Assembly (NCBI RefSeq): GCF_032050975.1
Contig: NZ_CP116967.1
Location: 2,663,001 to 2,727,000, forward strand
DNA from: Candidatus Nitrospira allomarina
GTDB lineage: Bacteria > Nitrospirota > Nitrospiria > Nitrospirales > UBA8639
DNA: 64,000 nucleotides
Direction: 5' to 3'
The notes beneath the pieces are model-generated. The model was given only the letters and a program-made list of their open reading frames with translations, was not told the DNA's origin and did no database searches. The position numbers were made by a program, and so were the translations under genes. This document shows, piece after piece, positions 2,866 to 29,750 of this stretch (positions are counted from its first letter, which is position 1; every line of letters begins with the position of its first letter).

Positions 2866-2886
2866 AAGGGTTAAGGAGAGTGGCGC
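2866..2886 (+). promoter_or_regulatory. AGGGTT-N6-AGT motif, copy 1
   Basis: AAGGGTT, six bases, AGT, then GGCGC. It lies about 80 bases upstream of the STAS start at 2965 and points toward it. It is one of eight similar sites in this window (see findings). Confidence 0.45.
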
Positions 2887-2964
2887 AAAAAACCGGGATG
2901 CGTAAAATTGAAAGAATTTTTTATACCGTTGTTATTCTCATCACCTATAGGGAGGTCGATTGTT

Positions 2965-3402
2965 ATGAAATGCACCATTAGCACCCCTGGCCAACATGTG
3001 GTTCTGACACTCACCGTGGATCTCAGTATTAATACCCCTAATTTGAGTCGAACCGATTTAATATTGGATCGTGTGGTCTCGTCACCGATTTCCATCCTCA
3101 TTTTAGATTTACGGTCCTTGTCATGTGTGAATTCCTTTGGGACCTGGACCATCCTCCAGATTGTATTTAAAGCCAGGGAGCAGGGGAAAGGTGTGTTCCT
3201 TTACAACGTACAACCTTCTATACAACCCTATTTGAAAGAAGCGGGAATACTTGAACTGTCCACCACCATTGATACCCAGGAGGAGCTTGGAAATGTGTTG
3301 GAAGGGAATTACCGGCTTCCGAGGTCATGTGCAAATGGGGGAAACGTGAAGACCTCATTTCAGGAAAGCCAAGTACCATCTGCCGGAATAGCATCGTTGT
3401 AG
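2965..3402 (+). CDS. STAS-domain protein (anti-sigma factor antagonist-like)
   Basis: A 145-residue single-domain protein of the STAS fold: alternating strands and helices with the central segment LILDLRSLSCVNSFGTW, which corresponds to the conserved DLSxVxxxDSSG region that carries the phosphorylatable serine in SpoIIAA-type antagonists; a serine (in VNSFG) is present. Such proteins act in partner-switching with an anti-sigma kinase. No RsbW-type kinase or sigma factor gene is adjacent, so its partner is not visible here. Start chosen at the ATG at 2965, preceded nine bases upstream by GGAGG; the longer ORF from 2908 has no such site. The C-terminal 25 residues look unstructured. Confidence 0.75.
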   Translation: MKCTISTPGQHVVLTLTVDLSINTPNLSRTDLILDRVVSSPISILILDLRSLSCVNSFGTWTILQIVFKAREQGKGVFLYNVQPSIQPYLKEAGILELSTTIDTQEELGNVLEGNYRLPRSCANGGNVKTSFQESQVPSAGIASL

Positions 3403-3617
3403 AAAAAGCGCCAGGCTTCAGAAAGGTATTTGTCTTGTTGCGAGGCGTAGGGACCCAGAAGGAAGACCGACGAACAGAATATGTTGATCCCGTGTAAACG
3501 ACTGGGCAGGGATACCAAGGGAGAATAAAATCGGATGATCTTCGGCGCATGCGCTTTCGTTGAAACTGTGAGGTAGGGTAAAGTTCACACGCACTTTCCA
3601 GAAAGCCGAAGCTTCCA

Positions 3618-6600
3618 GTGACTAGAAAAAAAACCCCGTCCAAGGATCGATTAGGCCCTTCGCCTTCCCTCCCACCGAAACCATCTTCAACTGTGCAAAA
3701 ACCACGGAAGTCCCTACGCCCCTCAAAGTCTCCTTCTTCTGCACCAACCCCTTCACCACCTCCCCAGGGGGGAATGACTGATGCACCGTCCAACGCTTTT
3801 CCCATCGTCGGGATCGGCGCTTCGGCCGGAGGACTCGAGGCATTGTGCCGGTTCTTTTCAACACTTCCAGACAATAGCGGAATGGGGTTTGTGGTGATCC
3901 AGCACCTGGCTCCCGATCGCGAAAGCCTTATGCCGGAATTGCTGGCGCGGAAAACCTCGCTGCCGATTCATGTCGCGGCAGATGAAACGCTAGTCGAACC
4001 CAATCATATTTATATCATTCCGCCCAATACGCAATTGAGCATCGATGGTGGGTTTCTGCGAGTGGACCGGCCTTCACAAATTCATGGCTTTCGAACGCCC
4101 GTTGATAAGTTTTTCAAATCCCTGGCCGAAGATCAAGGTCCATTTGCCATCGGGGTGATTCTGTCCGGCGCGGGGTCCGACGGAGCAGTCGGGCTTCGAT
4201 TCGTGAAGGAACATGGCGGGTTAACGATTGCCCAATCAACGGAAACGGCCCAATTTTCCGGAATGCCGACGAGTGCCATTCTGACCGGATTAATCGATTA
4301 TATCCTCCCGGTCGAAGCCATCGCGGAGGCGCTGATTCTCTATGCGAAATATTTATACGATCTCCGGGACGGAAAGGGCCTGGAAACCCTTCGTGCCGAA
4401 GCGCTGACTCACTTAGAGGTGATTTGCTCGCATCTGTACCGTCGGACCGGACACGATTTCCATGGTTACAAACGGAATACGATGGGTCGGCGGGTTCAGC
4501 GGCGCATGCAGATTCTGCACATTACCTCTCCCGCGCAATATGTCAGACGATTGCGGGAGGACCCGGAAGAAGTCGATGCGCTCTTTAAGGAGCTGTTAAT
4601 CGGTGTGACCCAATTTTTTAGAGATCCGGAAGCCTTTGCGTTTTTCTCCGACACGATCATCCCTAAGATCGTGAAATCCAAACACAACAATGAAACCATC
4701 CGGATCTGGATACCGGGTTGTTCGACGGGAGAAGAAGTCTATTCGCTCGCTATCCTTTTTTATGAATACCTCCATCGGGAACATCTTAACATTCCTCTTC
4801 AAATCTTCGGGACGGATATCGATGAGCGGGCATTGGATATTGCCCGCCGTGGGCAATATCCGGAAAGCATTCAGGAAGATGTGCTGCCCGATCGACTGTC
4901 CTTGTTCTTTGAACAGGACGGGTCCTGTTATCGGGTTGCCAAGGTGATCCGTGAGGTATGCATTTTTTCCTTTCATAATCTCGTCGGTAATCCCCCGTTT
5001 TCTCGCATGGATGTCATATCATGCCGGAACCTGTTGATCTACATGGAACCCACTCTTCAGAATCAGATGTTTGCCGTGTTTCATTATTCCCTCAACCCGG
5101 AGGGCTACCTGTTTCTCGGCGCGTCGGAACAGGCGGAAGACCAAACCCGATTCTTTCGCCCCGTGAATAAACGCTTTCGGGTATTTCAACCAAAAGAGAT
5201 CATGCGCCGCACGTTTCCCAAGTTCCCGATACAGGGACCGCGTGGCACCATGCCCACTCCGAAACCGGCTTTTTTCCCCCAGATTCAGGATCCCTTCATT
5301 CACACCTTCGATCAACTGGTCAGAGAGGAGTACGGCCCTCCCGGGGTGTTGATCGATAAAGAGTGCCAGGTGCAATACGTCTCCGGCCGGACCGGGACCT
5401 ATCTGCAGCTTCCCTCCGGTTCGGTCAACGTGAATTTGATCAATATGGTCATGCCGGATTTGCGTATGCCGTTGCGATCCGGCATTTTGAAGGCCGTGAA
5501 AACCGGCAAGGAGGTGGTCCTCCCCAATATTCAATTGACCGTGAATGATGATATGCAATCTGTGGATATCATTGTCCGTCCGCTTTTTCATGCCAAGCAA
5601 TCGTCCGATCTGCTGATGGTGGTCTTCCGTGAGAAAGGGCTGATCCGGAAACCTTCCAAAGACTCGAAGAAATACTCGAAAGGCGAGCACCGGACGATAA
5701 AGGAATTGGAGCAGGAAATTGACTCCACCAGGGAGCATTTGCAAACGGCGCTGGAAGAACTGGAGACCTCCAACCAGGAATTGAAATCTTCCAATCAGGA
5801 ATTGATGTCGGTCAATGAAGAACTGCAATCCGCGAATGAAGAATTGCAAACGTCTACCGAGGAATTGCAATCGATTAACGAAGAATTAGAAACGGTCAAT
5901 GCTCAACTGTCCGGAAAATTGGAGGAATTGGATCACGCCAATAGCGATATGGAAAATCTTTTCCGGACGACGAATATCGCCACATTATTTCTCAATGCCG
6001 ACTTATGTATTCAGAAATACACTCCGGCGGCCCAAAAAATGTTCCAGTTTTTAGATACCGATATTGGCCGACCCATTACACAATTGTCCTCATTTTCCAG
6101 AGACGAAACGTTATTGGCAGGTATTCGGGACGTGCTGCGCACCTCACGGCCCAACGAACAGACTCACCGAATTTTTCAAGACCCTCGGACATTCTTCACA
6201 CGAATGACTCCCTACCAATCCAGTGACGGTCAGACCCAGGGAGTTGTGCTGACTTTTGTGGATATTTCGAAGCTTCGCCAGGCGGAAGATCAAGTGCTCC
6301 GTTTCTCTCAACAACAGAAAGTGATGGCGGAGTTCGCACAGTTGGCGCTCCAGGAAAGAGATGTGCAGAAGGTCATGGACGAATGTGTCAGACTTCTGAG
6401 TCAGACCTTACCGATTGAAATGGCTAAAGTGCTGGAAATATTGCCGGGAGAACGGTCCCTCCTTCTTCGCGCCGGGGTAGGATGGAAAGAGGGATTGGTC
6501 GGCCAGGCCGTGGTGAGTGCCGATCAAAACTCCCAGGCAGGGTATACGCTGATAAGCCAAAAGCCGGTTATCGTCAAGGATCTATCGGCGGAAAGCCGGT

Positions 6601-7982
6601 TTTCCGGTCCTTCCCTATTGATTGATCATCAGGTGGTCAGTGGCATGAGTTGCATTATCCGGGATCAGGCAGGCAATCCGCATGGAGTCCTCGGTGTGCA
6701 TACAACATCACATAGGGAGTTCCGGGAGAAGGAGGTGGAGTTCCTCCAAGCCATGGCCAATATTCTTGCCTCGGCCATACACCGGAAAAATATCGAAACT
6801 CAACTGCAGTTCGTGACCGAATCCTTGGAACGCCGCGTGGATGAGCGGACACAGGATCTCGTTCAGCACCAACACCGACTGCGTCAAATGTCGCTAGACC
6901 TTATTCTTACCGAGCAACGGGAACGGCGGCGCATTGCCACCGAATTGCATGATTATTTAGGGCAGTTGCTGGTTGTCGGAAAGATAAAAATCAGTCAATT
7001 GCTGCAAACCGATCTTTCGAATCAGCAGGCGCCTCTTGTGCGGGAAATGGAAGAGTCTCTGGATGAGGCGTTGCAATACACTCGGGATCTCATTCCTCAA
7101 ATCAGTCCGCCCATTTTGTATGAATTCGGGTTTTTGGCGGCCGTCCGATGGTTGTCCGAAAAAATGAAACGGTATGATTTGCACGTCACGGTGGCATCCC
7201 ATGTTGATGAAGATCAATTGAATCTTTCCGAATCCGTCTCAATTATCCTGTATCAGGCCATCAGGGAATTATTGCTGAATGTGATGAAACATGCCCAGAC
7301 TCAGGAAGCTTCCATTCTGATCAATCAAGTCTCGTCAGAGGTGTTTGGAGTAGAAGTCGCGGATCGCGGATGTGGTTTTGATCTGTCCTCAACACGTGAA
7401 ACCCATTCCCCCTTTGACAAATTCGGCCTGTTGAACGTGCAAGAACGCATAGAAAGTCTTGGAGGCGAATGTGAGGTCCTTTCCAGGATCGGGGAGGGCA
7501 CTCGAGTGCTGATTAAAGTGCCTATTTCCGTGCAAGGCGCTGATGAAGAATCCCTTCAGTCCTCCTCTTCTCCCAAAGCGGTCCGGGTTTCGAATTCCCG
7601 AAAAACGGAGGAGGGTATCCGGGTTGTCCTTGCGGATGACCACCCCATATTTCGTGAAGGATTGGGCACCATGTTAAATGCCTGCCCCGATATTCAGGTG
7701 GTCGGAGAGGCCGAAAACGGCGAACAGGCTGTCGAGCTTGTTCAGACTCTTCACCCTGATGTGGTGGTGATGGATATCAATATGCCGGTGATGAACGGAA
7801 TAGAAGCCACGCGTCTCATTAAAGCCAGCCACCCGGCAGTCTATATCATCGGCTTGTCCATGCATGGGGATCAAATCGTGTCAAATAATTTTGCTGAGGC
7901 TGGAGGGGACGAATATGTGTCCAAAGGGGATTCGTTCGGTTCCTTCGCCGAGGTCATTCGATCCAGTCAAAAAAATCGATGA
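3618..7982 (+). CDS. CheB-CheR-PAS-GAF-histidine kinase-receiver hybrid
   Basis: A 1454-residue fusion. A Pro/Ser-rich leader (1-55) is followed by a CheB methylesterase domain with the Ser69 (GASAGG), His96 (VIQHLAPD) and Asp188 (SGAGSDGA) triad; a CheR methyltransferase (about 262-530, SAM loop PGCSTGEEVYS); a long coiled coil of SNQELxS/NEELQ repeats (about 690-775) typical of CheB-CheR-PAS proteins; a PAS domain (777-895); a GAF domain (905-1065); HisKA_3 with His1111 (TELHDYLGQLL); HATPase; and a NarL-type receiver with Asp1386. All catalytic residues looked for are present. No MCP, CheA or CheW is in the window, so its methylation target is unknown. GTG at 3618 is the open start; ATG at 3774 directly before the CheB domain, preceded by GGGGGGAA, is an alternative. 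Confidence 0.92.
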   Translation: MTRKKTPSKDRLGPSPSLPPKPSSTVQKPRKSLRPSKSPSSAPTPSPPPQGGMTDAPSNAFPIVGIGASAGGLEALCRFFSTLPDNSGMGFVVIQHLAPDRESLMPELLARKTSLPIHVAADETLVEPNHIYIIPPNTQLSIDGGFLRVDRPSQIHGFRTPVDKFFKSLAEDQGPFAIGVILSGAGSDGAVGLRFVKEHGGLTIAQSTETAQFSGMPTSAILTGLIDYILPVEAIAEALILYAKYLYDLRDGKGLETLRAEALTHLEVICSHLYRRTGHDFHGYKRNTMGRRVQRRMQILHITSPAQYVRRLREDPEEVDALFKELLIGVTQFFRDPEAFAFFSDTIIPKIVKSKHNNETIRIWIPGCSTGEEVYSLAILFYEYLHREHLNIPLQIFGTDIDERALDIARRGQYPESIQEDVLPDRLSLFFEQDGSCYRVAKVIREVCIFSFHNLVGNPPFSRMDVISCRNLLIYMEPTLQNQMFAVFHYSLNPEGYLFLGASEQAEDQTRFFRPVNKRFRVFQPKEIMRRTFPKFPIQGPRGTMPTPKPAFFPQIQDPFIHTFDQLVREEYGPPGVLIDKECQVQYVSGRTGTYLQLPSGSVNVNLINMVMPDLRMPLRSGILKAVKTGKEVVLPNIQLTVNDDMQSVDIIVRPLFHAKQSSDLLMVVFREKGLIRKPSKDSKKYSKGEHRTIKELEQEIDSTREHLQTALEELETSNQELKSSNQELMSVNEELQSANEELQTSTEELQSINEELETVNAQLSGKLEELDHANSDMENLFRTTNIATLFLNADLCIQKYTPAAQKMFQFLDTDIGRPITQLSSFSRDETLLAGIRDVLRTSRPNEQTHRIFQDPRTFFTRMTPYQSSDGQTQGVVLTFVDISKLRQAEDQVLRFSQQQKVMAEFAQLALQERDVQKVMDECVRLLSQTLPIEMAKVLEILPGERSLLLRAGVGWKEGLVGQAVVSADQNSQAGYTLISQKPVIVKDLSAESRFSGPSLLIDHQVVSGMSCIIRDQAGNPHGVLGVHTTSHREFREKEVEFLQAMANILASAIHRKNIETQLQFVTESLERRVDERTQDLVQHQHRLRQMSLDLILTEQRERRRIATELHDYLGQLLVVGKIKISQLLQTDLSNQQAPLVREMEESLDEALQYTRDLIPQISPPILYEFGFLAAVRWLSEKMKRYDLHVTVASHVDEDQLNLSESVSIILYQAIRELLLNVMKHAQTQEASILINQVSSEVFGVEVADRGCGFDLSSTRETHSPFDKFGLLNVQERIESLGGECEVLSRIGEGTRVLIKVPISVQGADEESLQSSSSPKAVRVSNSRKTEEGIRVVLADDHPIFREGLGTMLNACPDIQVVGEAENGEQAVELVQTLHPDVVVMDINMPVMNGIEATRLIKASHPAVYIIGLSMHGDQIVSNNFAEAGGDEYVSKGDSFGSFAEVIRSSQKNR

Positions 7983-8399
7983 TGTCTCCTGAACCCGTCA
8001 GATAAGTCATACAGCGCACGGAGTGAACCGGTAGGAATAGGAAGAAAACCTCCGCCCCCCTCCGTATGACTCTTCACGATTCCCTTTGGCGATTCCCAGC
8101 CACCATTGTCATGCTGACCTGAAGGCAAGCATTCAGCTCAGCCGTGAACCGGTCGGGCCGGGCACAGATCCTTCTCTTCTAGGGTGACCTTCTTTCTGAT
8201 AGGCTAAAGGGATCTCTTAACTTGAACCAGCGAAGATCAATTAGATTTTTGACTTGAGTCCTCACGAATTTTGTCCATGTCGGGTGAATGTGCGTTCTGT
8301 TTCACTGTGAGGCACTAGGATGGATGGTGAGTCGGCGAGCCGGTGAGTCTCTACAGAGATGTAGGCTCCCACAATTGGCAATGTATCCCCATTATTCCT
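7983..8399. other. Intergenic stretch, no gene recognised
   Basis: About 400 bases between the large hybrid kinase and the CheB gene. I see only short unsupported ORFs, no clear terminator hairpin and no motif shared with other gaps. Confidence 0.5.
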
Positions 8400-9428
8400 A
8401 TGCAAACATCACATCCCGATATTATTGTCGTAGGAGCGTCGGCAGGAGGTGTTACCACGCTCAAAAAGCTGGTGTCCTATCTTCCCCAGGATTTGCAAGC
8501 TTCGATTTTTGTCGTTCTCCATCTCGGTTCGTATTCGCCTTCCACGCTTGCTTCCATTCTATCGGATGCCGGGTCTGTGCCGGCCACACTTGCCAAACAT
8601 GGAGAGTTCATTTCCTACGGGAGAATGTATATTGCTCCTCCGGATTTTCATCTGCTGATTGATAAGGATGTGCTGGTCCTTTCCAAAGGTCCACGTGAAA
8701 ATCTTTGGCGGCCTTCTATTGACACGTTATTCCGTTCGGCGGCGGTGTCCTATGGCGTGCGGGTCGTGGGGGTTATTTTAACAGGATATCTGGATGATGG
8801 CGTCGCAGGCCTTCTGGCTATCCAGCGGTGCGGGGGGATGATTATGGTTCAGGATCCCGCAGAGGCCATGTTCCCGGATCTGCCGAATAATGTGTTGGCT
8901 CATATGCACGTCGATTTTTGTTTGCCGGTGGAGGATCTGGCCCGCCAACTGATTCAACAGGTCAAGACCCGGCTAGGCCGGGAATTTCCTCCTCCTGAAG
9001 ATCTGCTTGAGGAAAACGTATCGGTCGATGACTATAAAAGTCATCTTCCTCCTCGGCAAGTCAAGGGGGAGGTTGCCGGACTCAGTTGCCCCGAATGCGG
9101 AGGGACCCTTTGGGAACAGACCCAAGGCTCCTTAACCCGGTATCAATGTCACGTCGGACATGGTTTCAGCGAGCAGTCCTTGTTGGCGGGAAAATCGCAC
9201 ACCCTTGACCAGGCCCTGTGGACGGCCTTTCGGCTCATGGAGGAGCGTGTGGCTCTCCTGCGGAAATGTATTGCCAGAGCCCAACACACTGGTCTTCGAC
9301 ACACCCTGAGTTTATATCAAAAAGAGCTGGAACCTCTTCTGCCTCAATTGCAACAATTTCGAGAATTGTTAAGCCAAAAATCTTCATTTCCGTTTGAGCC
9401 GTCCTCGCCAGCCAATACGTCTGAATGA
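8400..9428 (+). CDS. Stand-alone CheB-type methylesterase with C-terminal zinc-ribbon-like segment
   Basis: The N-terminal 190 residues form a CheB esterase domain with the conserved Ser (VVGASAGG), His (VVLHLGSYSP) and Asp (GVILTGYLDDGVAG); it has no receiver domain. Family knowledge: CheB removes methyl esters from glutamates of chemoreceptors. The C-terminal part carries a CPECGG...CHVGHGF cluster, seen in many receiver-less CheB paralogues, followed by a helical tail. Because it lies next to a CheB-CheR-kinase hybrid, I infer both belong to one non-flagellar signalling module. The start is uncertain: ATG at 8400 gives the usual short lead into the domain but has no clear ribosome site; a GTG at 8343 would add 19 residues. 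Confidence 0.85.
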   Translation: MQTSHPDIIVVGASAGGVTTLKKLVSYLPQDLQASIFVVLHLGSYSPSTLASILSDAGSVPATLAKHGEFISYGRMYIAPPDFHLLIDKDVLVLSKGPRENLWRPSIDTLFRSAAVSYGVRVVGVILTGYLDDGVAGLLAIQRCGGMIMVQDPAEAMFPDLPNNVLAHMHVDFCLPVEDLARQLIQQVKTRLGREFPPPEDLLEENVSVDDYKSHLPPRQVKGEVAGLSCPECGGTLWEQTQGSLTRYQCHVGHGFSEQSLLAGKSHTLDQALWTAFRLMEERVALLRKCIARAQHTGLRHTLSLYQKELEPLLPQLQQFRELLSQKSSFPFEPSSPANTSE

Positions 9429-9815
9429 GTGATGCAACAACCTGACGGTTTTTCCTGATTGTTGAGGGGGATGTCCCAAACCGGCTGTTGAACGAATCAA
9501 ATGCTTTTGAGAGCTGTCGGAATTCAAAATTGGACTATCTTCCATGACCGAAGCAGGATGTTCAAAAGGCCTGTCCCGTCCTATGATTTTTTTCAGCTCA
9601 AGTGCGTAACTTTCCAGAAACTTACTATGGATTGGTTTCATGGCGAGTCGGGGGAATTTCGTTATTGTGAATTCCCTTCACGTTGATGCGCACACTGGTC
9701 CTATCTCTTTCTTCATGGGCATGATGTCATCCTACATAGCTTGAATCCCTCTTTCCCTCATTTAAAACTCCCATATTTCATTCGACATTTTTCAAGGGAT
9801 CTTCACGTCTAGACC
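9429..9815. other. Intergenic stretch, no gene recognised
   Basis: Nearly 400 bases without a convincing ORF on either strand. The only notable element is the motif copy at its downstream edge, entered separately. Confidence 0.5.
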
Positions 9816-9837
9816 CAGGGTTTTGGGTAGTAGGCGC
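9816..9837 (+). promoter_or_regulatory. AGGGTT-N6-AGT motif, copy 2
   Basis: CAGGGTT, TTGGGT, AGT, AGGCGC; about 70 bases upstream of, and pointing toward, the zinc-ribbon gene at 9905. Confidence 0.5.
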
Positions 9838-9904
9838 TTTTCGAGTAGGAAACTACAGTCAGACCATGAACATGATTTCTAACCCCAAGAACGAAGGAGG
9901 CCTT

Positions 9905-10210
9905 ATGCAAACGTTTACCCTGGCAGCGATGAGAAACGAGCACCCCGATGTGTTCCCTCAATTGGTTCAGCAAATGCAACAACCACATTGTTCACGGTGC
10001 GGAGGAACGATGGTCGAGGAGACGTATATGGATATTTTCTCCGACTATGAGGATTTTCAGTTTCAGGCCAAGCACTGTATTCAATGTGGTGACGTCATTG
10101 ACCCGTTTATTTTGCTGAACCGGTTGCGAACACATTCAGGTGAGACTCCGGATGTGAACTCCTTGTCACAGCCGCGTCATCGTGAAAATGGATTGGTCAT
10201 GACCGGGTAA
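9905..10210 (+). CDS. Small zinc-ribbon protein
   Basis: A 101-residue protein with two CxxC knuckles (HCSRCGG and HCIQCGD, about 40 residues apart), enough for one structural zinc. The remainder is helical or disordered. Function is not known. A second protein of the same design is encoded on the other strand at 30324-30629, sharing the CxRCGG, KHCIQCGxVIDP and (F)IL signatures. Start ATG 9905 is preceded by AAGGAGG with a short four-base spacer; an upstream ATG at 9866 in frame lacks a ribosome site. GC-rich pairing just after the stop (10201-10220) may weakly terminate. Confidence 0.7.
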   Translation: MQTFTLAAMRNEHPDVFPQLVQQMQQPHCSRCGGTMVEETYMDIFSDYEDFQFQAKHCIQCGDVIDPFILLNRLRTHSGETPDVNSLSQPRHRENGLVMTG

Positions 10211-15299: not shown

Positions 15300-15562
15300 A
15301 CGGACACACGTTTCCTTCTAATACTGAAGAACAGCATAGACATTCCCGGATCTATGTAAATGAGAACGTGGACACACGACATTACCTCGAGTGATCAGAG
15401 GGAGGCTGCTCTCCCTCGGCTGCGGTTACGCAAAACGACGTTGGGGCCCTGTCGTGAAAAAACGAAATTCGGAAAAGTATAGCGGCAATGAATAAGTCTT
15501 GTCTAAGAGTGAAACCCCCATGAAGTACCCACCGGGGCACCAGGGTTGTTGTTCAATCAACC

Positions 15563-15586
15563 CAGGGTTTTTCTCAGGTCTTGCCG
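15563..15586 (+). promoter_or_regulatory. AGGGTT-N6-AGG motif, copy 3
   Basis: CCAGGGTT, TTTCTC, AGG, then TCTTGCC; about 120 bases upstream of the small gene at 15704 and in the same direction. A weaker variant of the motif. Confidence 0.35.
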
Positions 15587-15703
15587 CCCAGACGATTCTG
15601 TATAAATAAAAAATCAAGGATCAAGAGGCAATTGACATCCTTGCTTCGGCATCATGGTTTTGAACCGATCGCCACCTGGATTCAACATAAGGAGAACAAA
15701 CCC

Positions 15704-19483: not shown

Positions 19484-19624
19484 AGGCACCTCCAAAACTT
19501 TTTGGCCATTCTCAGTTTGGCCAGGAACGCTCTCTCTCCAATTTATTCTGGCAGCGGGCCATAGCCGGAGCGATGGGAGAGAACAGGCCATTATTTTTCA
19601 AAACATATCAAAATGAAGTAAAAC

Positions 19625-19645
19625 GAAACCTGGGTTAAACCCTGG
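19625..19645 (-). promoter_or_regulatory. AGGGTT-N6-AGG motif, copy 4
   Basis: On the minus strand: CCAGGGTT, TAACCC, AGG, TTTCG; about 140 bases upstream of the BON gene start at 19483, same direction. Also internally self-complementary (CCTGGGTTAAACCCTGG on the plus strand). Confidence 0.35.
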
Positions 19646-19857: not shown

Positions 19858-20352
19858 TCAATCAACTCCCTTTGCGGGTTTGTTGGTGGTTTCGTGGGTG
19901 GCATGAATAAGCTGAACCGCTTTTTCGGGATCATTTTCCGCTGCAAATGTTTCCGCGGCGGTAAGGAGCATCTCGGATTGTACCGATTGACTGTTTGAAC
20001 CCCGATCAGTGTGGGACTTGAGGAGTTTGAGGATATGGGTGGCTTTTAATGCCTGATCTAGCTGATTATCGTCAAGCAGTCGATGGATTTCTTGAAGAAT
20101 TTGTGTGTCAATTTCCGTAAAGGGGAGGTCCTTCTCCGGTTCAGCAACCGGCGAGGCCTTTGGCGATTGTGTAATCCAGTGAATCGCCTCAGGAGAGAGT
20201 GTGAAACAATCATGGCCTATGGTTTCAGTAAGAAACCGCAATACCTTCCACGCATGAATGGTGAGATCTTCAACTTTTTTCATCCCGAGTGTGGATTGAA
20301 GAGCCAATACTTCTTGGCTCATTTCATCGGATATGGTGAATTGGATTTTCAT
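19858..20352 (-). CDS. Hypothetical cytoplasmic protein
   Basis: 164 residues, no signal peptide or membrane segment. The N-terminus (KIQFTISDEMSQEVLALQS) resembles a strand-helix opening seen in ribbon-helix-helix-like proteins; the C-terminal half is helical and contains ILKLLKSH and AAETFAAENDPEKAVQLI. I do not recognise the family. The ribosome site is weak (AAAAAAGGTATGTG). Its promoter side is shared with the superoxide dismutase gene, and each of the two divergent genes has its own copy of the AGGGTT motif. Confidence 0.55.
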   Translation of the reverse strand: MKIQFTISDEMSQEVLALQSTLGMKKVEDLTIHAWKVLRFLTETIGHDCFTLSPEAIHWITQSPKASPVAEPEKDLPFTEIDTQILQEIHRLLDDNQLDQALKATHILKLLKSHTDRGSNSQSVQSEMLLTAAETFAAENDPEKAVQLIHATHETTNKPAKGVD

Positions 20353-20414
20353 GTTTCACATACCTTTTTTACTTCTCATAAAATCACCTTCAAGATATAG
20401 CAGGATAAAGAAAT

Positions 20415-20437
20415 AAGGCGACTGGGCAAAACCCTGG
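20415..20437 (-). promoter_or_regulatory. AGGGTT-N6-AGT motif, copy 5
   Basis: Minus strand: CCAGGGTT, TTGCCC, AGT, CGCC; about 65 bases upstream of the minus-strand gene starting at 20352. Confidence 0.5.
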
Positions 20438-20479
20438 CCGTAGCCATTTTTTTTGATTCATCCTTCCGATGGGAGGTTC

Positions 20480-20500
20480 AAGGGTTTTTTCCAGTTACGC
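20480..20500 (+). promoter_or_regulatory. AGGGTT-N6-AGT motif, copy 6
   Basis: Plus strand: AAGGGTT, TTTTCC, AGT, TACGC; about 75 bases upstream of the superoxide dismutase start at 20574. Only 43 bases from copy 5, which points the other way. Confidence 0.5.
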
Positions 20501-20573
20501 TGGTTCTTATATTTCCCTAATCTGTTTCTAGAAAAGATTGGAGCCGATTGTTGGATATGGTTTGAGGGAATTT

Positions 20574-21191: not shown

Positions 21192-21412
21192 TGAAGAATC
21201 CCATAGACAATGGACTCTGTCTGCCAAGTTTTGATGTTCGATGGCATTCTCCTATACCGCAACCCGATCCTAATCCTAATCCTGACCCTTTTCCTAATCC
21301 TGGACCTCTTCCAAACCCTATTCCTGACCCACCGGGACCACCCACTCCTCTCCCAACACGGCCGCCTATACCAAAAATTCAGTCCTTTCCCCTTCTTCGT
21401 TATCATGCGTAG
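21188..21412 (+). CDS. Small proline-repeat protein coupled to the superoxide dismutase gene
   Basis: A 74-residue ORF whose ATG (21188) overlaps the dismutase TGA in an ATGA junction, with GAGGG a few bases upstream. After about 22 ordinary residues it becomes a regular Pro-x ladder (PQPDPNPNPDPFPNPGP and further), then ends PKIQSFPLLRYHA. The underlying DNA is a run of CCTAATCCTGACCC-type hexamer repeats. It could be a real translationally coupled extension protein or a repeat tract that happens to be open; another frame is also open across the same repeats. Confidence 0.4.
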   Translation: MMKNPIDNGLCLPSFDVRWHSPIPQPDPNPNPDPFPNPGPLPNPIPDPPGPPTPLPTRPPIPKIQSFPLLRYHA

Positions 21413-21610
21413 TGTCAAGGAAGCGTGGATTTGCTGATCCACAGCACAGGTGAGCAACCCTTAAGGAGCTAATCCCCTCGGTGGATCACAGGGGTTTGCC
21501 GAATTGGAACCCATCGAATTGTTTGTTGTAGACTTATTTACCTGATTCTTTCATAATGTCCTTCCTGGGGTTTCCATTTTAATAATGTCACTTTCATTCT
21601 TTTTTTTGAC

Positions 21611-22264
21611 ATGAGTAAAGCGCGGGTACTTTTAGCTGAAGATCACGTCCTGGTTAGTGAGGGACTGACCAAACTGCTGGAAACTGATTTCACGCTGGTG
21701 GGGACGGTTGTAGACGGTCATGCATTAGTGAAAGCCGTCAAGAAACATACACCGGACATTGCGATCATTGATATTTCATTGCCACTGTTGAATGGCTTGG
21801 AGGCCGCCCGACAAATAAAAAAATGTGAACCCCAAACAAAATTAATTTTTCTCACCATGCATTCCGAGGAACATTTTGTCCATGAGGCCTTCAAGGCCGG
21901 TGGGGTGGGGTACATTTTAAAACAATCTGCGACGGCAGAATTAGTATTTGCCATTAAGGAAGTGTACCAGGGACGCACCTACGTTTCTCCCTCAATTGCC
22001 CAGGGTCTTGTCAGTCAAGCACTGAATCCCTCTTCCAATTCAAAAAAACCCCCTCAGGAAGAGGGTCCCGCATTGACTCAGCGACAAATAGAAATCCTTC
22101 AATTGGTTGCTGAAGGAAAATCCAATAAAGACATTGCGGTCATATTAAATCTGGCCGTCAAAACCGTGGAATTTCACAAGACGCGGGTTATGCAAGTGTT
22201 GGGACTCAAAACGGCCTCCGAACTCACGAAATATGCTATTTCCAATGGAATAATTTCTGTTTGA
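21611..22264 (+). CDS. LuxR/NarL-family response regulator
   Basis: 217 residues: receiver domain (1-120) with acidic pocket Glu10-Asp11, phospho-acceptor Asp54 (IAIIDISLPLLNG), Thr (FLTMHSEE) and Lys (YILKQSA), and a C-terminal LuxR-type helix-turn-helix (ALTQRQIEILQLVAEGKSNK, then DIAVILNLAVKTVEFHKTRV). It is a likely DNA-binding output for one of the HisKA_3 kinases nearby, but no kinase is adjacent. No good ribosome site precedes ATG 21611. It is convergent with a second regulator of the same family at 22373-23032. Confidence 0.9.
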   Translation: MSKARVLLAEDHVLVSEGLTKLLETDFTLVGTVVDGHALVKAVKKHTPDIAIIDISLPLLNGLEAARQIKKCEPQTKLIFLTMHSEEHFVHEAFKAGGVGYILKQSATAELVFAIKEVYQGRTYVSPSIAQGLVSQALNPSSNSKKPPQEEGPALTQRQIEILQLVAEGKSNKDIAVILNLAVKTVEFHKTRVMQVLGLKTASELTKYAISNGIISV

Positions 22265-22372: not shown

Positions 22373-23032
22373 CTAGTCAAGGGGAGATATCCCTAATTTA
22401 ACCGCGTATTTCGTAAGATCTGCCTTGGAATGAAGGCCAAGGGCCTGCACAATTTGCATCTTATGGAACGCGACCGTGCTTTGAGAAATGTTCAACAAGT
22501 TGGCTATGTCTTTCGCCGAGAAGCCTTGAGCCACGAGCCTTAATACCTCCTGCTGCCTGGGAGTCAATTTTCCGGAAAGTTCGGTGCCCGGCATACCATC
22601 CATTTGGGCAAAAACCGCATTCTGTACCTCCTCAGGAATTAAGGGAGAGAGGTATTTCTGTTTTTCCTGAACCTGGTTAATCGCTGATAATAACTCGTTC
22701 CCTGCCGTTTGCTTCGGGACATACCCTTCTCCGCCGCTACGAAACGCCTCCATGATAAAAGTAGGTTCTAAATGCATGGACACAAAAATTATTTTAATGG
22801 ATGGACATATCGTTTTTAACATCCGAGCAGCTTCGTACCCGTTTTGGTCAGGCATTGAGATGTCCATGAGGAGGATGTCGGGCTTGGTTTGCCGGATTTG
22901 GCTGACCAAATCGCTTGCACTATTGGCCTCCCCCACGATGTCATGATGGGGTTCAAGCAGTTTTTTGCAGCTCTCTAAAACAAGAATATGGTCGTCAACA
23001 AGGAATAATCGTGCTCGCTTGGTTGTATTCAT
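22373..23032 (-). CDS. LuxR/NarL-family response regulator
   Basis: 219 residues: receiver with Asp13-Asp14, phospho-acceptor Asp57 (ILLMDISMPDQNG), Ser switch (FVSMHLEPT) and Lys (YVPKQTAG), followed by a LuxR helix-turn-helix (LTPRQQEVLRLVAQGFSAK, DIANLLNISQSTVAFHKMQI). It is a paralogue of the convergent regulator at 21611-22264. It carries an AGGGTT motif upstream, so its own expression may be part of the proposed regulon. The kinase is not identified; the ABM-PAS kinase at 24212-25690 is the nearest upstream on the same strand. Confidence 0.9.
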   Translation of the reverse strand: MNTTKRARLFLVDDHILVLESCKKLLEPHHDIVGEANSASDLVSQIRQTKPDILLMDISMPDQNGYEAARMLKTICPSIKIIFVSMHLEPTFIMEAFRSGGEGYVPKQTAGNELLSAINQVQEKQKYLSPLIPEEVQNAVFAQMDGMPGTELSGKLTPRQQEVLRLVAQGFSAKDIANLLNISQSTVAFHKMQIVQALGLHSKADLTKYAVKLGISPLD

Positions 23033-23171
23033 GCGGTAAACAAGTCCAGTAAGTTACAAGTCTTCCCTGTGTCAAAGGAACATCCTACTTTAACATGTCC
23101 CCCTTAGTCTCTTCTCCATACTCTTCTTTCCGTTACGCGAAGTACCTTACTGTAGCCAGCGGTGGCTCAGT

Positions 23172-23193
23172 CGCCAACTAGACAAAACCCTTG
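23172..23193 (-). promoter_or_regulatory. AGGGTT-N6-AGT motif, copy 7
   Basis: Minus strand: CAAGGGTT, TTGTCT, AGT, TGGCG; about 140 bases upstream of the regulator start at 23032 and pointing to it. Confidence 0.5.
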
Positions 23194-23333: not shown

Positions 23334-23368
23334 TCAGGGATGGCCATCTTAAACCGGGGGAATGAAAC

Positions 23369-23397: not shown

Positions 23398-23450
23398 CGC
23401 TTCATGATGATGAAAGCATCGTGAGGCTTGCAGTCTCAAACGGAACAGGA

Positions 23451-23747
23451 TTACTCCTTTTCAATCTTCACGACTTCTCCTGAATGAGCATCCACATAGA
23501 CTTCTCTGGTCTTTTCATTTTCGTCAACGATTTTCACTTCGAAAACAGTCTTGCCGTGCTCTTTTTCCAATTCGGCATCCACAGCCTTACCCTTCACCGT
23601 GGTCATGGCTTTTTCCACAGCCTCGACAAGTGTGATTTGAGTGCCCTTCAATAATTCGGCTTTGTCATCACCAAACAAGGCAAAAGCCGAGCTGACGGGC
23701 AGAAGACACGTGGCGAACGTGAGACTGAGAATTAAACGATTCTTCAT
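23451..23747 (-). CDS. Exported PepSY-domain protein
   Basis: 98 residues: a signal peptide (RLILSLTFATCLLPVSSAFA) then one PepSY domain (about 35-98) with the TLVEAVEKAMTTVKGKAVDA helix, the LEKEHGKTVFEVKIV strand and the closing VYVDAHSGEVVKIEKE motif that defines the family. PepSY proteins are believed to inhibit or modulate peptidases, or to be cell-envelope sensors. Start ATG 23747 follows AAAGGAGTCCGTT. Monocistronic with a strong hairpin behind it. Confidence 0.88.
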   Translation of the reverse strand: MKNRLILSLTFATCLLPVSSAFALFGDDKAELLKGTQITLVEAVEKAMTTVKGKAVDAELEKEHGKTVFEVKIVDENEKTREVYVDAHSGEVVKIEKE

Positions 23748-23851
23748 AACGGACTCCTTTGTTGTGAATATGATGATCAGACCTAGCGCAGAACTTACGC
23801 TCGAGTATGCCCTTCCCGAATGTTTGTCGCATTAGACAAAAGAGCGGCATC

Positions 23852-23888
23852 CCACCTGATGTTGTCTTCCCAGTCAGGTGGCTTTTTT
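23852..23888 (+). terminator. Rho-independent terminator-like hairpin on the plus strand
   Basis: CCACCTGA, a 14-base loop, TCAGGTGG, then CTTTTTTAA. The shape is that of an intrinsic terminator for plus-strand transcription, yet no plus-strand gene ends upstream of it (see findings). Confidence 0.6.
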
Positions 23889-23947
23889 AATAGAACTTTT
23901 AGCCATTCTGTTGGAGAAAACATCCAGAATTTCCCAAGGAGTTATAA

Positions 23948-24211
23948 ATGGCTTCGGTGCTGGAGCACACGTGGATGAGGGGGTGGAGTAGGTCGAATAT
24001 TTGGCCTTTCCATCGTCATTTGTGGGAAATGGGTGTCAGACCAGTCGGGAAGAATTTATGGAGTGCTCAAAAAGGTTCGTTTAACACGGCTGCATCTGCA
24101 TGGACGAATGGGAGCGTACGAAGGAGGAGGGTGATCACGACCATGCCGGCCAGGACCCTCAGGCTTACTGTTCAACGCGCCCTGAATGATTTAAAGGCAG
24201 ATGAAGAATAG
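23948..24211 (+). CDS. Doubtful small ORF with a good ribosome site
   Basis: 87 codons, six bases after AAGGAG. The product is rich in Trp and Arg and resembles no family I know. It ends exactly where the convergent kinase gene ends (24212). Other frames of the same stretch are equally open in parts, so this may be a decayed gene. Listed for completeness only. Confidence 0.25.
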   Translation: MASVLEHTWMRGWSRSNIWPFHRHLWEMGVRPVGKNLWSAQKGSFNTAASAWTNGSVRRRRVITTMPARTLRLTVQRALNDLKADEE

Positions 24212-25690: not shown

Positions 25691-25703
25691 TATTGTGTTC
25701 CCA

Positions 25704-26756
25704 TCATGCCAAAAGGGACGTTAAAGAGCGTAAATCGTACGCAAACCCATCCGCCCCGATTTCTCGAAAGACATCGGGCAGTGATCGAAATGCGGATCCG
25801 CCAACAAGAATGCGAGGGGTATACTCCGGGGGAAAATGGGTTCTGATATCGTTGATCAAATCTCTCACAATGGGGACCTTGAGAACCATCGTCGCGGAAA
25901 TACCCACAAGTGTGGGCCGGAATTCCTTGATCATTTGAAGGATTGCCTGGTGGGGGATATTGACACCTAAAAACCGGATATCCCAGCCCTGCGATTCGAG
26001 CAGGTCCGCCACCATGTGGGATCCGACTTGATGGAGTTCACCTTCCACACCGGTGATGATCCCTTTCCCTTGAAAAGGTTGTGCAGGTTTGACGCGGGGA
26101 TAGACGTTGGCCATTACATATTGGGTGATGGCCGTAGCCACGTGTTCTTGGGCGACCGAGATACGGTTGGATTCCCAGAGTCTGCCGATTTCATATAACG
26201 ATTCTTGAAAGAGTTCTACGTAGACATCGGAGAGAGAATCGGTCATTGAAAACGCCTCGAACGCAATCGTTCCGGCAGCATGGCGATTTCCGGCCAATAA
26301 AGCTTGAAGAAAGACCTCCTGATGCAATGCTAACGGAGAGCGTGGGTGCGGGGCCGGGGGAGCTTCCGGTCGTAGAGACTCATGAGGGCTCTCTATTAAA
26401 TGGGCCCGCACGACCTTTTTTTCGGAATCGGTAAGATGGGGCTCCAATGCATGAGAGATTTGATGCAAAAACTTCTGGAGTAAACTCTGGGAAATATTTC
26501 TTGCCTGGAGCACATTGGTTGTCCAACGTACATATTGTCTGAAAGTTTCCTCCGTTCCAAATTCAATGGCCGTTCTGAGAAAAGTCAAGTGGTAATGGGC
26601 GTCGGTGGCACAGTGTGCCTTCCCTGATTCTCCATACCCACCTGTCTCGGGATGATGTTGAAAGAACTGTGTCGTAATAACTTCAATCACATCCCCTTCA
26701 AGGAACTTCAATTTTTCTGCCAGCCGGTGTCGGTCGTTATTGTTGACATCTTTCAT
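25704..26756 (-). CDS. CarH-like cobalamin-binding sensor without DNA-binding domain
   Basis: 350 residues. The N-terminal 120 residues are an unassigned helical domain containing GGYGESGKAHCATDAHYHL. After a Pro-rich linker comes a B12-binding cap (about 145-225) with Trp194 and Glu204-His205, a W-x9-EH motif as in the light sensor CarH (Trp131, Glu141, His142). A Rossmann B12 domain follows (about 230-350) with the ExHxxG form of the lower-ligand motif (GELHQVG, His242), FLGVNIP, and GGSAF. CarH carries a MerR-type DNA-binding domain that is absent here; the downstream gene is a histidine kinase, so output may pass through it. Light sensing via adenosylcobalamin is an inference. No clear ribosome site. 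Confidence 0.82.
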   Translation of the reverse strand: MKDVNNNDRHRLAEKLKFLEGDVIEVITTQFFQHHPETGGYGESGKAHCATDAHYHLTFLRTAIEFGTEETFRQYVRWTTNVLQARNISQSLLQKFLHQISHALEPHLTDSEKKVVRAHLIESPHESLRPEAPPAPHPRSPLALHQEVFLQALLAGNRHAAGTIAFEAFSMTDSLSDVYVELFQESLYEIGRLWESNRISVAQEHVATAITQYVMANVYPRVKPAQPFQGKGIITGVEGELHQVGSHMVADLLESQGWDIRFLGVNIPHQAILQMIKEFRPTLVGISATMVLKVPIVRDLINDIRTHFPPEYTPRILVGGSAFRSLPDVFREIGADGFAYDLRSLTSLLA

Positions 26757-27506
26757 AAAAATGGGGAAAAGATCATGGAAAGCATAAATGACTCATTACT
26801 TTAGGAAAATAATGAGCATACGAGAAAGATTTACAGAGTGAGTGGTGTAGGTGTACGAATCATGCCAGAAAAAATGATGCAACTTTGCCAGTTTAGCTCT
26901 GCCAGACAGCATGTTCAACCTGGGGTGGGGTGATCATCAAAAACTAGTAATTCCTTTGAAATGAAAAGGTTGTATAGGGCTGAAATGGTAAAACTCATGG
27001 AACACCCAAGGAAAGCCTTACACGGACAGCCTGAAGGTCGGGCCCCCATTGCTCTGGACGCTCCCGGATTTCATCTCACTTAAAAACCTAGTTCTTCAGA
27101 GGATGACGTGGGTAAATGTATCAGCCAATGGTTGAGGCCATATGCATGGAGGTTCAAGTGCCCACCGATGCGGAACAGGTTCAGGGCTCGCAGGCCCCTG
27201 TTGGCGGTTCCGCCCCACACTTAACCAGGGTGATGGCAATCATTAGGTCAACCATCCGAACGTGTTGAGACTGCGGAATATAGACGGATTTGCATGAAGA
27301 ATATTTGGAAAACAGTCTTCGCTTTATACATTCCGATGCCGGTAACGATTCACTGTTCAGACTCTTTCATTGCATGGATATATGCCCGTTGTAAATGGAA
27401 AGTTTATCTAGTGAGGAAGACCGGATCTTCATTCATAATTGACCAGATTTTCATCGGCAATGGTTGGGCTATATATTCAGTTGATCAAAATTGAAAGGAG
27501 GAGCTC
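26757..27506. other. Long intergenic stretch with one stable hairpin
   Basis: 750 bases between the cobalamin-sensor operon and the small exported gene at 27507. It holds short ORFs without ribosome sites (the longest 27294-27494) and a GC-rich hairpin, entered separately. A degenerate match to the AGGGTT motif (CTAGGTTTTTAAG on the minus strand near 27085) precedes the cobalamin-sensor gene at long distance. Confidence 0.5.
27171..27212. other. GC-rich nested hairpin of unknown role
   Basis: CGGAAC pairs with GTTCCG; inside it GGGC-loop-GCCC pairs, with an intermediate CAGG/CCTG helix. No poly-T follows on either strand, and it does not match a riboswitch, SRP RNA or tRNA that I know. Confidence 0.35.
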
Positions 27507-27842
27507 ATGCGAAGACAGAAATGGAACGGTTCATTTGTGGGTGTTGCGATGATCCTGTTCGTGGTGGCACCGGGCGTGATTCCTTATCATAGTCATGCCT
27601 CTGCACCTGACCAAAAGGAAGTGGCTCCTGTTGCGTCGGGAGTAGTGGAAGGCCGGGTCATTGAAGTAGAACGGTTGACTCTCGTGATGGAAAAATCAGA
27701 CGGAGAAGTCGTTCGCGTTCCCATGCCGGGAAAAAGCGGGGAATCTTCTGCCGACTTTGAAAAAGGAGATTACATCGAGGTCGCCATATCTCCGGAGGGA
27801 ATAACTACCTCTGTCAGAAAGGTTGCAAAAACGGAAAACTGA
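27507..27842 (+). CDS. Small exported protein
   Basis: 111 residues; signal peptide (VGVAMILFVVAPGVIPYHSHA) and a C-terminal domain of about 65 residues with a likely small beta-barrel pattern: VVEGRVIEVERLTLVMEKS, VVRVPMPGK, FEKGDYIEVAISPEG, TTSVRKV. This alternation resembles OB-like or SH3-like exported proteins, but I cannot name the family. Start ATG 27507 follows AAAGGAGGAGCTC, a strong ribosome site. Confidence 0.7.
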   Translation: MRRQKWNGSFVGVAMILFVVAPGVIPYHSHASAPDQKEVAPVASGVVEGRVIEVERLTLVMEKSDGEVVRVPMPGKSGESSADFEKGDYIEVAISPEGITTSVRKVAKTEN

Positions 27843-27939
27843 CAGACATAATAAGAAAAATTTCGGGATTAGGGAACCTTGGAGAACCCACCCCTGAAAT
27901 TAACCTAGGCTCCGTTGTTTGGAAGAAAGTGAGGTTTTC

Positions 27940-28107
27940 TTGATAAGTCCCGTCTGCGCTCATCCCGCTTGTTCCTGCCAGAATTCTGAGGGTGAGGAGT
28001 ACTGTTCGGAAGAATGCGCAAATGTGATTACTGCTCCGGTAGGAAAATGCCGGTGTGGTCATGATAGTTGTGAGGGTTATTTAAAATATCGAGATGCCTC
28101 GTCGTAA
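27940..28107 (+). CDS. Metallothionein-like small protein
   Basis: 55 residues with eight cysteines and two histidines in the order CAHPACSC, YCSEECA, KCRCGHDSC. This matches the bacterial SmtA-type metallothionein pattern (CxCxxCxC ... YCSxxCA ... CxCGHxxC), proteins that bind Zn, Cd or Cu in a cysteine cluster. The TTG at 27940 is chosen because GAGG lies five bases before it; a TTG at 27919 in frame lacks a site. It follows the exported protein gene by about 100 bases on the same strand. No ArsR/SmtB-type regulator is adjacent; the only one in the window is at 40961. Confidence 0.75.
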   Translation: MISPVCAHPACSCQNSEGEEYCSEECANVITAPVGKCRCGHDSCEGYLKYRDASS

Positions 28108-28110
28108 ACA

Positions 28111-28257
28111 TCAATTAGGTGTGCTAAGGGTATGTAGGAGTTGGTAGTCGAGAATTTCATTTTGTTGACGCAAGAGATTCGCAAGTTCGGTGGGTATTTC
28201 AATGGCGAGACGTGATCGCCGGGGTAATGCTTCCATCAATAGGAAAGGATTCCTCAT
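28111..28257 (-). CDS. Possible 48-residue protein
   Basis: A short minus-strand ORF, not usually reported. The sequence RRSRLAIEIPTELANLLRQQ is amphipathic and looks coding, reminiscent of the start of antitoxin-like or ribbon-helix-helix proteins; the rest is NEILDYQLLHTLSTPN. Start may be ATG 28257 or 28236; neither has a clear ribosome site. It is convergent with the metallothionein gene, three bases apart. It could be the tail of a decayed gene. Confidence 0.3.
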   Translation of the reverse strand: MRNPFLLMEALPRRSRLAIEIPTELANLLRQQNEILDYQLLHTLSTPN

Positions 28258-28555
28258 CCTTCATATGAGCCAACGGCGATCCTAATAGACGGTTAAAATA
28301 AAATAGAAAATCACCAATACATCATTTCCAGACCATGGTATTCTGTAGCATCCCATAAATACCCCAGCCTCTTTTCCTCCTTCAATATTGTTTGCCTGGA
28401 ATCCTCTAGCCAAAGACCAATCATCCCAATAATTTTTAAAAAATTCGGATCAGGGATTAGCCCGTAACAAGTTTATGGACCAGTATTAGGGCTTTTTTGC
28501 TCATAACCGTGAGAAAGCAAAACCTTCAATGGCCACCTGTTAAAAATTCACCAGG

Positions 28556-29104
28556 TTATTCGGGAGCAGCGAAGGTGGCGGAGGACTGCGAATGCCTTGA
28601 ATTCTCGGCCAGAGGATTTGATGGGAGACTGCGTTCGACCTGAGGCGAACAGGGCATTTGGACCAATGAAAAGCGGCCCCCCGATTGAGTTGGAGAATGG
28701 TTGTCTTCTATTCGGGTATACCACCACCGGCCTTCTGCCAGTTTGCCGGAGGATGACAGGCGAAGATCAAACTCCCCTTCGCGATCGTTTTGGGTTTGGT
28801 ACCATTTGCCTTGCCACCGGCCGTTATCGAGTTTCGTCGTCAACAAACGTCCCCCTTGCCATTCATACCCGCCGTGGCCTTCCCGATTGAGGGTTAAGCA
28901 ATACGCACCGTTTTCATCACGGTATTCCCATGTCCCCGCAAGATCCGATTTCTTGATTGAAGACGGTTGCACATCTTGACCCGGTGCATGCACCTGAGGC
29001 TCGGGAGGGTTGGTGCGACAGCCAAAGAACACAAATTGAATTACGAGAAAGACTCCTACCATTTTCCATTTGCGTAAATGGACCGTTTGTAGTTTTTTAA
29101 TCAT
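28556..29104 (-). CDS. Lipoprotein of unknown function
   Basis: 182 residues. The N-terminal KMVGVFLVIQFVFFGC is a lipoprotein signal with Cys at the cleavage site. The mature part contains a probable small beta-domain: LAGTWEYRDENGAYCLTLNR, WQGGRLLTTKLDNGRWQGKW, EGRWWYTRIEDN, rich in Trp and Gly, like lipocalin-type or extracellular ligand-binding sandwiches. The C-terminal 35 residues are low complexity. No family assignment. Start ATG 29104. Confidence 0.65.
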   Translation of the reverse strand: MIKKLQTVHLRKWKMVGVFLVIQFVFFGCRTNPPEPQVHAPGQDVQPSSIKKSDLAGTWEYRDENGAYCLTLNREGHGGYEWQGGRLLTTKLDNGRWQGKWYQTQNDREGEFDLRLSSSGKLAEGRWWYTRIEDNHSPTQSGGRFSLVQMPCSPQVERSLPSNPLAENSRHSQSSATFAAPE

Positions 29105-29730
29105 GATCCGACCTTCTACGTGCTGCTCTAAAGTTGGAAGATACTACCGTTACTTAAAACATCTCTGCCGGACAGCCGGGAGTTTCCGGCCTTATACACA
29201 GGTCACTCCGGATTGTCCGGTCCGATGAGAGGACAATGGAGCAGCGGTCAGGCGCCAGACCGGGTTCCTGTGGAAGGGGAATGACGGCACGTCTTTTGGG
29301 GCCACTCCAGACCAATTACATCAAAATGGTGATACATCTGCACCTGGCAAATACCCTGGGAGGGAAGCTTCATGCGCCGATCCCATCCTCATCAGGTCAT
29401 GTATCGGATTGAGGGTAGTAAGGTTTACTGAACCGGCGTATGTCATAGCCTGTTTCAAAATCATGTCAGGCCGGCTTGAGGGTTGCCGGTAAAATAGCCC
29501 GGCTCTCAACTTTTATCCGACGAAAGATCTAGGCAGGCAGGAGACCATTGACGGTCCGACTGACGGTCCGACTTTACAGTGAAATGTCTGTATGATTCGC
29601 GGACACGGATGCATTTAGTTAAAGGAAGACTCAAGTGTATTTTCACGTTTATTCCAGGGTTCCTTGCAGTGTTCGGGTGAGCAAAAAACTATTACATTCC
29701 GATGAAGTTTTTTGATCCTGGAGATATATC
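29105..29730. other. Intergenic stretch, no gene recognised
   Basis: About 625 bases. Two tandem copies of GACGGTCCGACT (29549-29573) and a degenerate motif copy on the minus strand (CCAGGGTATTTGCCAGG, near 29348) are the only patterns seen; ORFs lack ribosome sites. Confidence 0.5.
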
Positions 29731-29750
29731 TAGGGTTTTAATGGTCAATG
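29731..29750 (+). promoter_or_regulatory. AGGGTT-N6 motif, copy 8 (partial)
   Basis: CTAGGGTTTTAATG followed by GTC instead of AGT; about 90-100 bases upstream of the DksA-type gene at 29833, same direction. Confidence 0.3.

Follow-up and report, generated by a model that had tools for sequence, protein, structure and literature searches.

A recurrent promoter element in the window, by which we mean the whole stretch of 64 kb analysed here (G000:C1:2663001-2727000, on a chromosome that is a single contig of 4.55 Mb), can be read with high confidence as the operator of one activator placed next to a weak sigma70 -35. The motif is part of a 138-kb stress-gene island with about 32 intergenic sites, further sites being found elsewhere in the chromosome, and the genes preceded by the box are very probably one co-controlled set. 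For the full reading, in which a class II operator governs a stress regulon centred on the island and a 306-residue protein encoded there is the activator, we estimate a probability of just under one half (about 0.48); taken singly, the choice of this protein as the best candidate regulator has about an even chance of being correct.

The original prediction described AGGGTT-N6-AG(T/G) with a G/C-rich end upstream of eight genes. The motif is real, and seven of the eight sites were borne out within a few bases, the numbers given for the minus strand being those of the opposite end of the site, some bases lower. Exact matches to AGGGTT-N6-AGK, numbered by the motif's first base as read on its own strand, are found in the window at 2867+, 9817+, 15564+, 19643-, 20435-, 20481+ and 23191-, and also at 29656+ and 21319-. 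AGGGTT by itself is frequent in the window; with one mismatch tolerated the pattern gave 35 matches against 22.9 +/- 4.8 in shuffled sequence, and 35 was reached in 0 of 100 shuffles. The eighth site, placed at 29731, had to be moved: AGGGTT at 29732 lacks the AGT block, and the box of the DksA-type gene is the one at 29656. A matrix scan added two sites that had been overlooked, 29357- (27.3 bits) and 30737- (20.5 bits). The exact match 21319- was rejected as a true site, lying in a repetitive stretch and below the listed matrix-scan scores; a short proline-rich ORF after the superoxide dismutase gene (21210-21437, plus strand), with CCTAATCCTGA-type repeats, is the origin of this false match. 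Box and start codon are 83-177 bases apart in the window, with outliers at 253 and 349, and not 65-150 as first proposed. The sites, with the two response regulators discussed below, are as follows.

2865..2881, plus strand: box CAAGGGTTAAGGAGAGT, -10 TAAAAT at 2903-2908; before a STAS-domain gene (ATG 2965)
9815..9831, plus strand: box CCAGGGTTTTGGGTAGT, -10 TACAGT at 9854-9859; before the gene of a 101-aa protein whose cysteines look zinc-ribbon-like by eye (ATG 9905)
15562..15578, plus strand: box CCAGGGTTTTTCTCAGG, -10 TATAAA at 15601-15606; the next well-scored gene, 349 nt on, encodes a 50-aa membrane protein (alternatively, the box may belong to a small ORF in between)
19629..19645, minus strand: box CCAGGGTTTAACCCAGG, -10 TATGTT at 19602-19607; before a BON-domain gene (start 19483)
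20421..20437, minus strand: box CCAGGGTTTTGCCCAGT, -10 within 20392-20399; before the gene of a 164-aa protein without Pfam match (19858-20352)
20479..20495, plus strand: box CAAGGGTTTTTTCCAGT, -10 TAATCT at 20518-20523; before the Fe/Mn superoxide dismutase gene (ATG 20574)
21611..22264, plus strand: LuxR2, a response regulator combining receiver and GerE domains; rival candidate for the regulator
22373..23032, minus strand: LuxR1, a response regulator combining receiver and GerE domains; both a box target and a rival candidate for the regulator
23177..23193, minus strand: box CAAGGGTTTTGTCTAGT, -10 TACAGT at 23149-23154; before the NarL/LuxR-type response regulator gene at 22373-23032
29343..29359, minus strand: box CCAGGGTATTTGCCAGG, overlooked earlier, -10 TGTAAT at 29315-29320; before a 182-aa ORF (28556-29104), 253 nt on
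29654..29670, plus strand: box CCAGGGTTCCTTGCAGT, superseding 29731, -10 TACATT at 29693-29698; before a DksA/TraR-type gene (29833-30234)
30723..30739, minus strand: box CCAGGGATCTATGCAGT, overlooked earlier; before the gene of a second protein whose cysteines look zinc-ribbon-like by eye (30324-30629)

At most sites the layout is CMAGGGTTTTnnnCAG-TTGnnn-N17-TAnnnT, the box adjoining a weak -35 which is followed by a sigma70-type -10. The TAnnnT element emerges de novo at offset 37, the -10 having been unused in the seed. Among 66 seed-only sites of four genomes, orthologous sites included, TANNNT stands at offset 36, 37 or 38 in 11, 23 and 5 cases respectively, so that 39 of the 66 have a sigma70-type -10 at a fixed distance, as class II promoters do; every other offset from 18 to 59 has it in 0-4 of the 66. 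The consensus of 95 sites from four genera is C-M-A-G-G-G-T-T-T-T-T-n-n-C-A-G-T-T, and their best -10 lies at offset 35, 36, 37 or 38 in 2, 17, 65 and 11 sites, a distribution which is partly circular because only offsets 35-38 were searched. Given the 17-base spacer, offsets 14-19 are the -35, which starts with TT in most sites and is otherwise degenerate. The GGCGC end of the original prediction falls in these offsets and is not a common feature, positions 18-20 carrying 0.0 bits over the 95 sites; their bases are nonetheless kept between orthologous promoters, as is expected of a -35 region. In the same 95 sites the box shows weak palindromy in its outer bases, and the core AGGG...CAG is not an inverted repeat.

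If transcription starts about 7 bases past the -10, the box would occupy about -51 to -36, which is the position of a class II activator. In class II activation by CRP, the site is centred at -41.5 according to an excerpt of PMC5957442. Both there and here the operator adjoins or overlaps the sigma70 -35 at a fixed distance from the -10; the present operator differs in being unrelated in sequence and in showing no clear palindrome, and its regulator is a candidate only.

The clustering of the motif is local. Over the chromosome AGGGTTN6AGT has 55 matches against 83 for the reversed control, and therefore the bare pattern shows no genome-wide excess and says little outside the island; 21 of the 55 lie within 2562-2693 kb, a segment of ~130 kb or about 3% of the genome. 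The whole-genome scan proposed with the original prediction thus gives a clear local excess and none for the bare pattern over the whole chromosome. A genome-wide excess appears only with longer patterns: the strict pattern with TA at +37 has 16 matches (11 in the island) against 1 in the control, and CMAGGGTTN5YAGT has 27 against 2.

Placement was analysed in 304 kb (2503001-2807000), which contain no exact matches beyond those 21. All 21 are intergenic in a region of which 18.8% is intergenic, and the reversed pattern has 6 matches there. The claim that every copy points to its gene holds for tandem genes, 7 sites running with the genes and 0 against; 13 sites lie between divergent genes and 1 is 'convergent' by crude gene calls, which came from a simple script that missed or shortened some genes, e.g. 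LuxR1. A matrix built from the 21 exact sites plus the -10 gave 34 matches above 18 bits in the 304 kb, 32 of them intergenic, while the reversed sequence gave 0 and three shuffles gave 0, 1 and 0; these counts are partly circular, the training region being the first region scanned, which does not apply to the seed-only counts and to the scans of other genomes. The 166 kb of flanks have no matrix match above 18 bits, and one in-gene match of 17.2 bits.

The island carries genes for a large catalase, Ku, LigD, CsbD, PRC-barrel, cupin, a TPP enzyme, a GFO/IDH/MocA oxidoreductase, Fe/Mn superoxide dismutase, BON, STAS and a DksA/TraR-type protein, with others assigned by eye. Box targets include the catalase, superoxide dismutase, PRC-barrel, BON, cupin and DksA-type genes; among the listed matrix matches of the 304 kb none lies directly upstream of Ku, LigD or CsbD, so not all island genes are boxed. 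Outside the island, in a sample of 0.19 Mb mostly picked for containing pattern matches, sites above 16 bits are found upstream of hemerythrin-like, small Cys-rich and alcohol dehydrogenase-like genes and of several small envelope proteins (names by eye). Some of these sites are kept in the relative G010; others in this sample are probably due to chance.

The promoters are conserved. Between G000 and G010, 29 of 32 sites could be aligned. The box was 93% identical, AGGGTT 98% and the -10 90%; the spacer reached 78%, and the sequence outside 74-76%. These values may somewhat favour the conserved core, since the sites were picked in G000 and the 220 bases around each were compared through their best local blastn match (three of the 32 had no match, and one match did not include the box). 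In regions of G010, G031, G036 and G027 the matrix found 35, 20, 22 and 19 matches above 18 bits against 1, 1, 1 and 0 in reversed sequence; sites from related genomes are non-independent. G031, G036 and G027 belong to three other genera, and their islands carry the same promoters, before genes that by eye encode superoxide dismutase, zinc-ribbon, PRC-barrel, cupin, CBS, BON and envelope proteins.

Among the 48 genomes of family f1, 13 are motif-rich, with three or more strict matches and counts running from 3 up to 18; none of the remaining 35 has more than one. In 49 genomes of the sister families f2-f4 a shorter pattern gave 44 matches against 27 in the control, at most 4 per genome; such counts, just above control, are not regulon-like, and a regulon-like box set in these families was rejected. 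Six named relatives with the gene of the 306-residue protein are Nitrospirales MAGs, including the isolate UBA8639 and NPIRA03/06, from which we infer that family f1 is UBA8639; this is lineage IV according to an excerpt of PMC12342949. The motif-poor genome G033 has a 55% homolog of an island BON gene (G033:C57:3600-5099) and does not have the gene of the 306-residue protein.

This gene (G000:C1:2658645-2659565, minus strand) lies in the island, 3.4 kb to the left of the window. It is present in 12 of the 13 motif-rich and in 0 of the 35 motif-poor f1 genomes; in the thirteenth motif-rich genome, G004, the contig breaks off 0.55 kb beyond the BON gene next door, so that G004 was not counted as a true absence. 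Eight genomes of the same genus have the gene; its own box reads CAAGGGATTTTAACAGTAC, without a single difference, in seven of them and CAAGGGATATTAACAGTAC in the remaining one. Boxes, some of them weak, are also found upstream of the gene in four other genomes: that of G036 and G038 reads CAAGGGTAAGTGACAGTAC, that of G027 reads TCAAGGATATTAACAGTAC and is weak (14.9 bits), and the gene of a G031 protein 38% identical to the candidate has CCAGGGTTCTTTCCAGTTC.

Over the phylum, 79 of 395 genomes have a homolog of the candidate, and every one of the 79 belongs to family f1, f2 or f3 of the order. The f3 homologs, of about 40% identity, are common in that sister family, where the box is rare; the loci examined there have no box in the homolog's promoter and have a different conserved stretch instead, and these box-less homologs count against the candidate. 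In the f3 genome G089 the homolog lies beside a TPP-enzyme-like gene (by eye), and the island too has a TPP enzyme (L037:1307-3058). G000 itself has a paralog of 58% identity (G000:C1:2997714-2998613) with no box upstream, and G010 has broken remains of a candidate-type copy at C1:929.7-930.0 kb.

We regard the candidate as a previously undescribed orphan protein. It has no convincing model match in Pfam or NCBIfam, no match to Pfam Sigma70_r4 at E up to 0.1 or up to 1, four matches to PDB profiles of which none is convincing (best E 0.2), and no recognised receiver domain; comparison of its profile with sigma-4 sequences, a single comparison, was marginal (P 0.023). The full-length structural model was too poor (pLDDT 41) and was set aside. 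Residues 104-215, modelled with six homologs (pLDDT 75), gave in VIA-align top rows that are mostly sigma region 4 chains, the first being 3hug (SigL region 4 with the anti-sigma RslA; Z 6.1, 69 aligned residues, 2.6 A). Z was at most 6.1, below 8, values which by the tool's own warning may mean merely a common arrangement, and the missing of other folds from the list excludes nothing; Foldseek gave E above 1. These matches suggest, weakly, that the middle domain is sigma-region-4-like.

The C-terminus contains C220, H242, C246 and C249, invariant in 14 of 14 aligned members, in the spacing C-x21-H-x3-C-x2-C. It thus has the ligand pattern of zinc-binding anti-sigma (ZAS) factors, CHCC or HHCC with H-x3-C-x2-C, and matches no family model. 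In RsrA the zinc ligands are Cys11, His37, Cys41 and Cys44, according to an excerpt of PMC4960319. The resulting C-x25-H-x3-C-x2-C of RsrA resembles the candidate's segment, which differs from RsrA and other ZAS proteins in sharing a polypeptide with a putative sigma-4-like domain and in having no Pfam match. A sigma-like domain may serve outside a sigma factor, as in PhyR, which combines it with a receiver. The candidate may be similar to PhyR in this respect, and its structural matches include a PhyR entry, 3t0y (Z 5.3, 50 residues); the candidate has no recognised receiver domain and a different architecture.

The main rival to the candidate is the pair of LuxR-type response regulators. The same class II operator would then be bound by LuxR1 or LuxR2, driven by histidine kinases of the island, and the 306-residue protein would be merely a target, an explanation that we take seriously and still consider unlikely. 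LuxR-type activators often bind near -42, and the weakly palindromic outer bases of the box would suit them; the core, not being an inverted repeat, would not. LuxR1 has its own box, and homologs of both regulators occur in the islands of G027, G036 and G031. At an identity of at least 55%, LuxR2 was found in 11 of the 13 motif-rich genomes and in none of the 35 motif-poor ones, only 64 candidates having been scored in many genomes; since this is nearly as good as the pattern of the 306-residue protein and the island is shared, the co-occurrence of the latter is confounded. The absence of LuxR2 in G012 was discarded as evidence, the contig ending inside the neighbouring superoxide dismutase gene.

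The only genome that separates the two is G019, which keeps boxes and the 306-residue gene and in which LuxR1 and LuxR2 orthologs were not found; at 93% completeness, their loss in assembly is possible. G019 has a reduced module in which the zinc-ribbon, STAS and candidate genes are each preceded by a box; a further strong site lies on another contig, and the motif count is low (3 strict matches against 0 in the control, 3 against 1 with CMAGGGTTN5YAGT). G019 favours the 306-residue protein, though as a single incomplete genome with few sites. A CheB/CheR-type hybrid homolog lies there between the zinc-ribbon, STAS and candidate genes; the STAS, CheB/CheR-PAS-type hybrid and zinc-ribbon proteins of window 2965-10210 thus have homologs beside the candidate in G019, a possible signal input.

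A regulator encoded elsewhere in the genome, acting on the same operator with all island regulators as its targets, would account for the scattered sites outside the island. It is the less economical explanation, as motif-rich genomes co-occur tightly with an island gene that has its own box, and we judge it improbable.

The original prediction had offered two explanations, a shared activator site or an alternative-sigma promoter. The former is well supported by the fixed distance to the -10, the intergenic and directional placement, the conservation of box and -10 between species and the concentration of 21 of 55 genome matches in ~3% of the chromosome. The latter, with AGGGTT-N6-AGT as the -35, could draw on the same fixed distance and on the candidate's sigma-4-like domain. 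In alternative-sigma promoters a conserved -35 is followed, at about 16-19 bases, by a -10 that differs from that of sigma70. Here the strongest block, AGGGTT, ends 31 bases before the -10, beyond the usual -35, the -10 is the sigma70-like TAnnnT, and the candidate matches no sigma family model; this explanation is not favoured and has very little probability. A chance or repeat-derived pattern, for which the frequency of AGGGTT alone in the window, the match 21319- in a simple repeat and the missing genome-wide excess of the bare pattern might speak, is ruled out for practical purposes by placement, shuffles, reversal, conservation and the cross-genome scans.

On the preferred reading, with the 306-residue protein as activator, the operator CMAGGGTTTTnnnCAG (about -51 to -36) would adjoin a weak sigma70 -35, TTGnnn, 17 bases before the -10 TAnnnT. 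The operator-bound protein, more plausibly an activator than a repressor, would lie next to sigma region 4 and recruit the housekeeping polymerase as class II activators do, at roughly 30 promoters of the 138-kb island and at fewer elsewhere in the chromosome. It would join a sigma-region-4-like domain to a C-terminal CHCC segment as in zinc-binding anti-sigma factors, which may serve as a redox or zinc switch, and it would be autoregulated through its own box. The most specific form of this proposal, a one-protein stress regulator of lineage IV Nitrospirales in which a sigma-4-like activator at sigma70 promoters of the island regulon is held in check by a CHCC zinc segment of its own polypeptide until oxidation opens this segment, is tentative and rather doubtful.

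General stress regulons include those of EcfG/PhyR in Alphaproteobacteria, sigmaB in Bacillus and RpoS. The present set resembles all three in placing many mixed protection genes (catalase, superoxide dismutase, BON, PRC-barrel and others) under what is very probably one control. It differs in apparently using an activator with sigma70-type promoters and no alternative sigma, in having its genes largely packed in one island, and in that motif-rich genomes make up part of one family only. Among the open-licence papers listed on Nitrospira stress response, an AGGGTT regulon, promoter motifs and N. marina stress enzymes, no title or abstract describes such a motif or regulator. An excerpt of the N. 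marina genome paper names superoxide dismutases and catalases, and the term 'sigma factor' is absent from its text (PMC8115632). For a stress response of nitrite oxidisers, the proposal would supply a defined operator together with a regulator gene open to testing; its promoter code would mark island genes of no assigned function as co-regulated, and the candidate may be a case of a single transcription factor built from sigma-like and anti-sigma-like modules.

Elsewhere in the window, two adjoining porin-like genes on the minus strand (34450-37479), with an ABC-type ATPase gene alongside (by eye), are identical in their final 45 residues, which may be due to duplication or gene conversion.
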